Of a DNA stretch of 64,000 nucleotides, positions 13,106 through 39,964 are shown piece after piece. Source of the DNA: Thermodesulfatator indicus DSM 15286. GTDB taxonomy: Bacteria; Desulfobacterota; Thermodesulfobacteria; Thermodesulfobacteriales; Thermodesulfatatoraceae. The stretch covers positions 859,244 to 923,243 of the forward strand of contig NC_015681.1 of NCBI RefSeq assembly GCF_000217795.1. Direction: 5' to 3'. The notes under the pieces were generated by a model. It saw only the letters and a program-made list of their open reading frames with translations, made no database searches and was not told where the DNA came from. Position 1 is the stretch's first letter, and every line of letters begins with the position of its first letter. Made by a program: the position numbers and the translations under genes.

Positions 13106-13187
13106 ACCGTTGAAGAGCAAGGCATTGAGGCAAAGATTCCCATTGTGTTACTAGAAAAAGACAAAACAGGTGACAATTTAGGGTTTG

Positions 13188-35096: not shown

Positions 35097-35146
35097 CTTT
35101 TTATTTTATCAATTCGTATTGACAAAAAATTTTTTACATATTTTAA

Positions 35147-35210
35147 AAGAGACCTTTGCAAAATATCTTATTTAAGAGACTGCTTCGCCCATACGGGCTC
35201 GCAGTGACAC
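35147..35210 (+). repeat. Composite repeat left of the IS110 element
   Basis: GAGACCTTTGCAAAATATC (35150 onward) is followed by AAGAGACTGCTTCGCCC and GGGCTCGCAGTGAC. The same order occurs in the inverted copy right of the element (36461-36535) and near 26604-26664, so this is a composite family member with a GAGACCTTTGCAAA box. Confidence 0.7.
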
Positions 35211-35266
35211 CTGAGAGAGTCATTGTATGGTTTTAAGTAAAGGGCAAAAGCATTAAAGTAAAAAAA

Positions 35267-35434
35267 GTTGGTAGGGAGGGACAGGCTGTTGAGTCATGGA
35301 ACGTTTGCTTTTTAGCAAACTGTTCGATCGCAAGATTAGCCGTCCTTCCCTGTGTTTGAACAGTATCCGGGACGTTTCCAATTACGGAAACTGTCCGTAT
35401 ACAAGGCTAAACCTGGAAGGACCTCCCTACCAAC
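35267..35434 (+). ncRNA. Putative IS110 bridge RNA
   Basis: A 13-bp perfect stem closes the region: GTTGGTAGGGAGG (35267-35279) with CCTCCCTACCAAC (35422-35434). Inside are two hairpins of the same build. Hairpin 1 is GAAC-GTTTGC, loop TTTTTA, GCAAAC-(T)-GTTC (35299-35325). Hairpin 2 is GGAC-GTTTCC, loop AATTAC, GGAAAC-(T)-GTCC (35370-35396). Blocks TTAGCC/GGCTAA (35336-35341, 35405-35410) and GTCCTTCC/GGAAGGAC (35342-35349, 35415-35422) can pair in alternative ways. Upstream position and two loops match the target- and donor-binding layout known for IS110 bridge RNAs. Transcription is not shown. Confidence 0.7.
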
Positions 35435-35474
35435 AATCTTTATTTTATCTCAAAGAAAGGAGAATTGAAGACCT

Positions 35475-36443
35475 ATGAAAAATTTATCTTTTCTTGGGGT
35501 GGATGTGGCCAAGGATACATTGGTTATTTTTGATGGCCAGAAGGTTTACGAGTTTCAAAATGAAAGGGGTTTAAAGAAATTTAAGAGGAAGTTTTTTAAG
35601 AAGAAAGAAGACAGGAAGAAAAGGGTGGTGATATACGAGCCCACAGGGCCATATTCGGCATTTCTGGAGGAGTTCTGTGCTACGAATATGATAAAAGTAG
35701 TATCCCTTAACCCCAGAAAAGTCCCCCGTTTAAGAGAAGTATTAGGTCATAGAGCAAAAACAGATAATCTTGATGCGAAACTGTTATACGAATATCACAA
35801 GATAGTTAGCGAAGAAGAGATCAAAGAAATAGAATATAACGAAAATTTAGAGAAATTATCTTTATTGTTAAGTGAGTATCAATTACTTCAAAATATAGAA
35901 AACAAGTTATCTAATTTTCTAGAGTATTTAGATAGAGTACCAGTAGATAGTAAAGAAAGCAAAAAATACATACAGAAAAACTTAGAAGAAACAAGGCAGA
36001 GGCTTCAGAAGATAAAGAAAGAGATGGAGGAATTAGTAAATAAAGATGACGACATAAACAGAGGGGTTAGAGAGATAGAGAAAGTTAAAGGTATAGGGAA
36101 GATGATAGCGACATATTGTTACATCTTTTTTCGGAAGAGGCGGATAAGAAACCGGCGGGAGGTAGTAGCTCTAGCAGGATTGGACCCGGAAGTAAAGGAA
36201 TCTGGTAAGAGGAAGCTGGTAACCAGGATAAGCAAGAAAGGGGATAATAGGTTAAGGAGTTTGCTTTTTATGGGGGCGCTTAGTGCCATAAGATGTAAAG
36301 AAGGGGGACTAAAAGAGTATTACGAAAGTTTGATAAAGAGAGGAAAACCGAAGAAAGTGGCCATAATAGCCTGTGCCAGAAAATTATTGATATTTGCTTT
36401 CTATAATTACAAAAAATGGCAAATGGAAGCTCAAAGTGCTTGA
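35475..36443 (+). CDS. IS110-family transposase (DEDD, bridge-RNA type)
   Basis: The 322-aa recombinase has a RuvC-like N-terminal domain (SFLGVDVAKDTLVIFDG; YEPTGPYSAFLEEF; HRAKTDNLDAKLLYEYHK), giving the DEDD acidic set, then a helical coiled-coil linker (about 120-200). The C-terminal Tnp-2 domain has LAGLDPEVKESGKRK and RISKKGDNRLRSLLF, whose Ser is the expected nucleophile. No stops or frameshifts are present, so it may be active. AAGGAG precedes the ATG at 35475. Length is near the IS110 norm (about 320-400). Confidence 0.9.
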   Translation: MKNLSFLGVDVAKDTLVIFDGQKVYEFQNERGLKKFKRKFFKKKEDRKKRVVIYEPTGPYSAFLEEFCATNMIKVVSLNPRKVPRLREVLGHRAKTDNLDAKLLYEYHKIVSEEEIKEIEYNENLEKLSLLLSEYQLLQNIENKLSNFLEYLDRVPVDSKESKKYIQKNLEETRQRLQKIKKEMEELVNKDDDINRGVREIEKVKGIGKMIATYCYIFFRKRRIRNRREVVALAGLDPEVKESGKRKLVTRISKKGDNRLRSLLFMGALSAIRCKEGGLKEYYESLIKRGKPKKVAIIACARKLLIFAFYNYKKWQMEAQSA

Positions 36444-36666
36444 CAAAAACCACAGTATCTTGCGAGGCTGCGTCCAGCAGCCGAAGCAATCAATCTATAT
36501 TTTCCTTAATTTTGCAAAGATCTCTTTTTTGTCAAACTTATGTAGCAACATTCCTGGATTCTAGCTTTAGCCAGAAGTAAATGGAACTTCAAATTATTTT
36601 TAAAGCAAACTTGGTTTTTAACGATTAGTTAGTTATAAAAAAGCAAAACCCCTAAAGGAGATCTCT
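36444..36666. repeat. Gap after the IS110 element with inverted composite repeat
   Basis: The complement of 36461-36535 reads GAGATCTTTGCAAAATTAAGG and then GATTGCTTCGGCTGC...CTCGCAAG, the inverted counterpart of the copy at 35147-35210. The remainder to 36666 is A+T-rich and presumably carries the promoter of the TPR gene, with CTAAAGGAGATCT as ribosome binding site. No gene is visible. Confidence 0.6.
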
Positions 36667-38937: not shown

Positions 38938-39964
38938 AGACTACACTTGCCAAGAACTTGAGGCCCTCTTCAAAGAAAGAGGGCTTCAAGCCTACCGGGG
39001 ACGGCAGGTTTTTAAGTGGTTAGCCCAACCTGGAATCTACTCTTTTGCCCAGATGACAGATCTTCCCAAAGCCCTTCGTGAAGAGCTGTCTAAAGAGTTT
39101 TGTCTTTTTCTCCCGGAAATTTACAAAGAAGAAGTCTCTTCAGACGGGACTCGTAAACTTGCTTTGCGTCTTAAAGATGATGAACTTATTGAATGCGTTA
39201 TCATTCCCGAGGAAGACCACTATACCCTTTGCGTATCCTCCCAGGTGGGCTGTGCCATGGGGTGTGCCTTTTGTCTCACAGCCAAAATGGGTTTTAGGCG
39301 CAATCTTTCCCCTCACGAAATTACGGCCCAGGTGTTGAGGGCCAAAGAAGTGCTTATACGCGAAGGGCTTATTAAAGAAAAGCCTTTGCGAAATATCGTC
39401 TTCATGGGTATGGGAGAGCCGCTTGCTAATTACGAAAATATTCTTAGGGCCCTAAAAATTCTGCTAGACGAGAAGGGGTTTAATTTTTCGCGCCGCCGCG
39501 TTACGGTTTCCACCGTGGGCCTGATTCCCCAGATGGAAAAACTCGGGAAAGACATAACCGCTAAACTTGCTATTTCCCTGCACGCCGCAGATGAAGATAA
39601 AAGGACTCAACTTATGCCTATCAACAAGCGCTATCCTTTGAAAGAACTGATACCTGCCTGTCGCCGATACCCCTTACCTAAAGGCTGGCGTATTACCTTT
39701 GAGTATCTTATGCTTAAAGGGGTGAACGATTCTTCTCACGACGCCCACAAACTGGCCAAACTCTTAAAAGGCGTGCCAGCTAAAATCAACCTGATTCCTT
39801 TTAACGAACATCCGGCCTTGCCTTTTAAGTGCTCAGATGAGGAAACTATATTCCGCTTTCAGGGAATTCTCCTTTCTTACGGTTATGTAGCCACTATTCG
39901 CAAAAGTAAGGGGCGAGATATTTCAGCGGCCTGTGGGCAACTGGCTACGAGGCTTGCCGCATGA
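38915..39964 (+). CDS. rlmN: 23S rRNA (adenine2503-C2)-/tRNA (adenine37-C2)-methyltransferase
   Basis: The 349-aa radical SAM enzyme has the cluster motif CAMGCAFC (Cys113, 117, 120) in [29 protein letters not shown] (SAM-binding region) and the C-terminal catalytic ACGQL. The start is TTG at 38915, with AGGAGG 11 bases upstream, inside the end of the TPR gene. It methylates A2503 of 23S rRNA, and in many bacteria A37 of tRNAs. It overlaps trmFO by 4 bases. Confidence 0.95.

Follow-up and report, generated by a model that had tools for sequence, protein, structure and literature searches.

A probable IS110-group bridge RNA with an outer stem enclosing its target- and donor-binding loops

The structured region in the left end of an IS110-group insertion sequence, found within the 64,000-nucleotide stretch of DNA analysed here (the window), is very probably a bridge RNA. 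A first-pass annotation of the sequence had proposed this reading, and it is borne out by matches of the two loops to the target and to the donor, by covariation among relatives and by the mapped ends of the element. The bridge RNA itself represents a known kind of RNA-guided DNA recombination. Judged against text descriptions of the IS621 system, the present RNA appears to be set apart by a long outer stem that ties its two loops together; it is plausible that this architecture is a new variant, which may already be in print. The features discussed below are collected in Table 1.

Table 1. Features of the IS110 element, its putative bridge RNA and its insertion site (window coordinates).
Feature	Coordinates	Strand	Basis
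IS110 element, 1,237 bp	35224..36460	+	ends from 9 copies; crossover place from G004 junctions
Left target flank, ends GAGTCAT	35209..35223	+	host repeat, 120 sites GTCATTGCGAG
Right target flank TGCGAGG...	36461..36475	+	junction comparison, arm-to-target match
-10 box TATGGT, left end; 17 nt from -35 box when ends joined	35226..35231	+	sequence
-35 box TTGACA, right end	36440..36445	+	sequence
Outer stem, 5' strand	35267..35279	+	coordinate check, alignment
Target-loop stem, 5' strand GGCT; partner 35338-35341	35284..35287	+	alignment
Left target guide GAGTCAT	35291..35297	+	loop-arm match test
Hairpin 1, within target-binding loop	35299..35325	+	coordinate check, alignment
Right target guide TCGCAA	35328..35333	+	loop-arm match test
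GAT, handshake-guide place; complementary to donor, not target	35334..35336	+	CAAGAT match to donor
Middle strand GTCCTTCCC; partner 35415-35422 (donor-loop stem) or 35274-35282 (alternative)	35342..35350	+	alignment
Left donor guide ACAGTATC	35360..35367	+	loop-arm match test
Hairpin 2, within donor-binding loop	35370..35396	+	coordinate check, alignment
Right donor guide ATACAAG	35399..35405	+	loop-arm match test
Outer stem, 3' strand	35422..35434	+	coordinate check, alignment
Ribosome-binding-site-like AAAGGAG before gene	35456..35462	+	read from sequence
IS110 recombinase, 322 aa; D10, E55, D97, D100, S243	35475..36443	+	domain search, alignment

The transposase gene is intact, as had been claimed: its frame is open and carries the domains DEDD_Tnp_IS110 (PF01548) and Transposase_20 (PF02371), together with NF033542. 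Among PDB chains it matched the recombinases of IS621 (8wt6, E 3.8e-15) and ISCro4 (9t56, E 4.5e-15), and its five active-site residues are all kept, aligning in the order of Table 1 with D11, E60, D102, D105 and S241 of IS621 as numbered in the accessible text on that element (chain numbers differ by two). In keeping with the IS110 group, a RuvC-like DEDD domain is joined to a C-terminal domain with an apparent catalytic-serine position, and the RNA occupies a long left non-coding end (251 nt left of the gene) while the right end is short (17 nt). Traits of the IS1111 group were not found in the element: the structure lies upstream and not downstream of the gene, the right end has the length just given, and the 20-bp inverted repeat that was detected is located beyond the element (IS1111-group elements have subterminal inverted repeats of 7-17 bp). 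The G+C content of the 16S rRNA, 61.8%, is consistent with the thermophilic host that had been supposed.

A transposase search of the 2,322,224-base single-contig genome gave ten matches at nine places, corresponding to eight copies with an open frame and one split over two overlapping frames. Aligning these copies, a check suggested together with the bridge-RNA proposal, yielded both the element ends and empty sites. The eight copies in which both ends are present span 1,236-1,238 bp (1,237 bp in five of them), the left flank is GTCAT in eight of the nine, the ninth (L004) being rearranged at its left end, and the right flank is TGCGAG in all nine; the insertion junctions fall at a single host repeat, GTCAT/TGCGAG. 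The empty site GTCATTGCGAG occurs exactly 120 times in the genome and its reversed control not once, and by eye it belongs to a palindrome-like host repeat, with examples at window positions 13187 and 58459. The TG at 35224-35225 is common to the element and the host site, so that 35226-36462 are equally valid bounds. From the junctions of the window copy and of a related element in another genome (G004), the core has a T common to target and donor, preceded by A in the target and C in the donor; in the G004 junctions the crossover falls behind the T of GTCAT, making AT the target core and CT the donor core.

Within the left end, the outer stem is perfect over 13 bp and the two hairpins share one build (four pairs, six pairs, a loop of six bases and, on the 3' side, a single T left unpaired, T35321 and T35392), exactly at the positions first reported for them. 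Two further complementary blocks that had also been pointed out are present (35336-35341 with 35405-35410 and 35342-35349 with 35415-35422); they cross or compete, and the outer stem and the second block both require C35422. An additional pairing of 9 bp, including one G-U, joins 35274-35282 to 35342-35350. The 196-nt region 35255-35450 has a predicted folding energy of -80.3 kcal/mol against a shuffle mean of -47.0 kcal/mol (z -8.1), and none of 200 shuffles folded as well. At 70 °C the predicted pairing probability in the window RNA is 0.83 for the donor-loop stem and 0.92 and 0.73 for the two hairpins, with both guide pairs mostly open, and the G004 RNA is similar. Not all stems appear in the single-sequence folds of G003 and of the G002 copies; hairpin 1 reaches a probability of 0.06 at 37 °C in G003 and in the G002 copy L073.

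Guide function was assessed from matches of the RNA to DNA. An unanchored test of such matches was weak for the target, for which 96 of 1,897 random sites scored equally well, as did 110 of 2,000 shuffled RNAs, and therefore only the four loop arms were tested; for the donor the unanchored test performed better (eight random sites and seven shuffled RNAs as good). Each arm was defined as the 13 nt flanking an inner hairpin on one side, a definition fixed after the matches had been seen by eye. The arms of loop 1 match the target over 7 + 6 nt and those of loop 2 the joined element ends over 8 + 7 nt, and swapping the loop assignment leaves only 3 + 5 and 3 + 3. The sum of 28 was not reached by any of 18,932 random site pairs from the window, for which the maximum was 21. 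In a scan of all window positions, the matches listed with a target-loop score of at least 13 include at least one unrelated locus (39582-39590, minus strand). The left arms read as the top strand and the right arms as its complement, which is the order and strand seen in IS621. Furthermore, the GAT after the right target guide matches the donor, as expected for a handshake guide of the IS621 type; on our own reading, G35406 would be the only base of the donor loop to fit the target at a handshake-type place.

Covariation across homologues was assessed in an alignment of 11 rows that was fitted to the proposed structure and in which several rows are near copies, truncated or decayed. These are 11 of 15 matches; the four dropped (E 1.5e-4 to 7e-4) comprise L083 1805-1952 and three that lie opposite to retained RNAs, on the other strand. 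The outer stem, the donor-loop stem and the two hairpins are 92.8% paired over 335 cells, and sliding the stem partners cuts pairing to 37-52%. The stems covary, with changes on both sides in 17 of 40 pairs: they affect four of 13 pairs in the outer stem, six of ten in hairpin 1, seven of ten in hairpin 2 and none of seven in the donor-loop stem, where five pairs never vary. Pairing in the nested GGCT/AGCC stem is 86.4%, and one of its pairs has changed on both sides; G35326 and G35397, each directly following a hairpin, do not vary in five sequences. The outer-stem changes, together with the leaders of four out of four species, which fold at 0.0 to -1.8 kcal/mol and contain no stable 5' stem-loop, agree with the initial view of an unusually long outer stem and a distinct subtype, as far as text descriptions of other bridge RNAs serve for comparison.

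A conformational switch or pseudoknot had likewise been put forward. The part of this idea that involves the crossing pair fared poorly, as this pair is 81.3% paired with one double change and its strands also serve nested stems; it stays in consideration as a weak candidate because it would repair a mismatch of the nested stem in G003. A different competition, in which the 5' strand pairs with the middle strand, may occur, this alternative helix being as well paired as the stems (93.9% over 11 rows, one double change). If this helix, 35274-35282 with 35342-35350, closed the target loop alone, the same bridge RNA would have an IS621-like working fold and the outer stem would be a second or inactive state. 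The G002 copy L077 favours such a fold (probability 1.00 for the alternative helix at 37 °C and 0.00 for the outer stem), but L077 is a decayed copy, the window RNA prefers the outer stem (0.97 vs. 0.03 at 37 °C and 0.92 vs. 0.07 at 70 °C), and the double changes in four of the 13 outer-stem pairs would be left unexplained. We consider it unlikely that this is the working state.

Another reading, which we rate as rather improbable, takes the full structure as a precursor and a shorter, processed seekRNA of 70-100 nt with the target loop as the active guide. According to the accessible text of PMC11187229, short seekRNAs outnumber the long form in one IS110-type and four IS1111-type elements. 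However, the donor loop in the present RNA is conserved as well as the target loop, it matches the element ends, and most pairs of its hairpin are doubly changed (seven of ten), which argues for selection acting on the donor loop as RNA. A cis-acting leader of the transposase mRNA, i.e., an attenuator or regulatory fold with no guide role, would account for a structure placed directly before the ribosome-binding site and gene but is very improbable given loop arms that match target and donor in the IS621 pattern, a guide and target that differ together in G004, and an Rfam search at its thresholds that found nothing at the RNA locus (three chance-level matches, E 1.6-7.3).

Comparison of the preferred bridge-RNA structure with IS621 draws on the portions of two reports available to us (PMC11208160, PMC11208158). 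As described there, the IS621 bridge RNA is 177 nt long and has a 5' stem-loop followed by target and donor loops joined by a flexible linker, the element inserts into REP repeats, and its promoter is formed where the right and left ends join. At 168 nt, the structure described here is close to this length, which does not support the earlier suggestion of a shorter RNA. Further likenesses to these descriptions are a recombinase with a DEDD and serine active site, an RNA in the long left end with the target loop before the donor loop, a left arm that pairs with the bottom strand and a right arm that pairs with the top strand, a joined-end promoter (by sequence in our case), a dispersed host repeat as the insertion site, similar RNA size, and a base left out on the 3' side of each inner hairpin. 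Going by the numbering, the flipped-out A67 and A150 of IS621 are the probable counterparts of this unpaired base in the two hairpins, and G72 and G155 those of G35326 and G35397. Unlike IS621 as described in these texts, the window RNA has a stem of 13 bp around both loops and no stable 5' stem-loop, its loops are enclosed and directly adjacent with no linker of note, and the element combines target core AT with donor core CT where IS621 has CT in both; the recombinase is also distant (E 3.8e-15). Deletion of the IS621 5' stem-loop lowered RNA binding and slightly reduced activity (PMC11208160, PMC11208158), and we therefore treat the 5' stem-loop as a subtype trait and not as a group trait.

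If the element works as IS621 does, it would excise as a circle, and a sigma70-type promoter created where its ends join would drive transcription of the RNA. Recombinase dimers on both loops would then pair with target and donor, and a cut after the T of the two-base core followed by strand exchange would insert the element. The covarying outer stem could hold both loops in one three-way junction, replacing the 5' stem-loop and linker of IS621. That this junction defines a separate bridge-RNA class is a tentative proposal, possible but on balance doubtful. If it does, the tied RNA would either enforce the use of two RNAs or allow a single RNA to bridge both DNAs in cis with another geometry, and the tie may perhaps be an adaptation to high temperature. 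For IS621, the available text (PMC11208160, PMC11208158) places the facing loop ends about 80 Å apart and suggests two RNA molecules per synapse; with the outer stem, whether a synapse uses one or two bridge RNAs becomes directly testable. The element would offer a compact bridge-RNA system, probably heat-stable, whose guides can be read and whose natural target is known, with 120 exact sites in one genome; natural retargeting between species also seems to have taken place.

The promoter boxes form TTGACA-17-TATGGT only when the right end is joined to the left end, as read from the letters alone, and promoter-like sites in the region are no commoner than in shuffles (5 vs. 3.2, sd 1.9). In the integrated copy the host flank provides a weaker GTGACA-16-TATGGT at window 35204-35231, from which the copy might still be transcribed.

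Relatives of the left end with most of the RNA were found in four other genomes of the genus (G002-G005), with only fragments in G007. The protein search gave relatives in five of 148 related genomes and three of 395 genomes of the phylum, the own genome being counted in both, and the RNA model under stricter filters likewise hit five of 148 and three of 395 sampled genomes, own included, all of one genus. In G004, for which five left and four right ends were available at contig breaks, the left flank is GTCAT in all five cases, and the right flank starts with CGCGAG in three of four and with CCTGAG in the fourth, i.e., with C for T in all four. Its right target guide reads TCGCGA instead of TCGCAA, with G for A, which suits the C of these flanks. 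Abundance of sites does not explain the choice of C, because T sites are the commoner form in G004 (42 vs. 24; 120 vs. 3 in the genome of the window). Guide base and chosen target base appear to differ together over four insertions, which is suggestive but not conclusive. Retargeting between relatives is known in kind, as natural reprogramming is reported for seekRNAs in the accessible text of PMC11187229.

When the left guides of seven elements were compared with their own left flanks, the match was at least as good as in all but 19 other permutations of 5,040, and over five lineages one other of 120 was as good; the window element, G004 and G003 do not discriminate among themselves in this test because their left flank is identical. 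In the table of guides and flanks, no rows were given to L004 (left end rearranged), to L054 as a guide in its own right, to L083 or L086, or to the fragments L055-L057. The anticipated match of loop bases to the flanks of each copy held for the window copy and was poor for the left flanks of G002b (four of seven), G002c (three of seven) and G005 (3.5 of seven), and the predicted right end of the G005 element was found in none of six genomes. In G003, the guide of L052 matches GCCATCCTGA more closely than GTCAT, the left flank that L052 now has, and CGCCATCCTGAACC is found upstream of the left end of L052, a few tens of bases away. Decayed RNA copies occur in G002 (L083, 1501-1632; L086, 1501-1640; L073; L077); L083 retains the target loop and outer stem but has neither donor hairpin nor guides, and in L077 the beginning of the gene is gone.

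More distant systems provide a broader frame. A single-protein query found no relative in the genome-contig or viral-contig collections, and an alignment query of the genome contigs recovered at least two distant partial relatives (L098 and L099). Among 72,556 plasmid records, 1,786 had a match, with the best place below 60% identity in all of them, and the plasmid-borne recombinase relatives show 26-29% identity among the 25 matches listed. The solved IS110-family recombinase of ISCro4 (9t56) aligns with residues 56-309 of the window protein, a distant likeness confined to the PDB protein sequence. As reported in the accessible text on the ISEc21 seekRNA, an IS110-type system (PMC11187229), an upstream non-coding region gives rise to a guide RNA matching both target strands and a promoter forms at the joined ends, as seems to be the case here; the working form reported there is 70-100 nt, vs. 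the 168-nt structure of the window. Six further published structures are named in the source text available to us (ISPpu10, ISAar29, ISHne5, ISCARN28, ISAzs32 and ISPa11). IS1000B of Thermus thermophilus (L100) is an IS110-family element of another thermophile with a recombinase 27.9% identical; one predicted fold from the IS1000B plasmid has a 9-bp helix spanning approximately 200 nt upstream of the gene, which may represent an outer stem like the one described here. Upstream of the gene, all of six distant IS110 elements, those fetched among 25 listed and each folded as a single sequence, gave predicted folds with a helix of at least 6 bp spanning at least 110 nt (four downstream regions were folded too). 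In the Kosakonia and Azospirillum elements this long helix is, by eye, formed between the element end and the right donor guide of the same element. Going by these single-sequence folds, an outer stem may occur outside this genus.

Several minor observations concern the host site. Immediately outside the element, a 20-bp inverted repeat (95%) occupies window 35145-35164 and 36509-36528, and similar ends are also found near L092 and L094; the window copy seems to be nested in a MITE-like host repeat carrying the target site. A second IS110-family transposase has six matches (G000:C1 96418, 242855, 346494, 2321358, 720440 and 964039) with open frames of 143-480 aa, and one of its fragments adjoins L004. 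Seven sites without an insertion sequence (L091-L097; G000:C1 82071, 757252, 1343290, 1796064, 2219546, 2233547 and 2254886) read GTCATTGTATGGTTTYAATTTAAC.CT followed by another GTCATTG, i.e., 12-14 nt of the left end of the element fused to the host repeat; they are perhaps scars of aborted or excised insertions that spread later with the host repeat.
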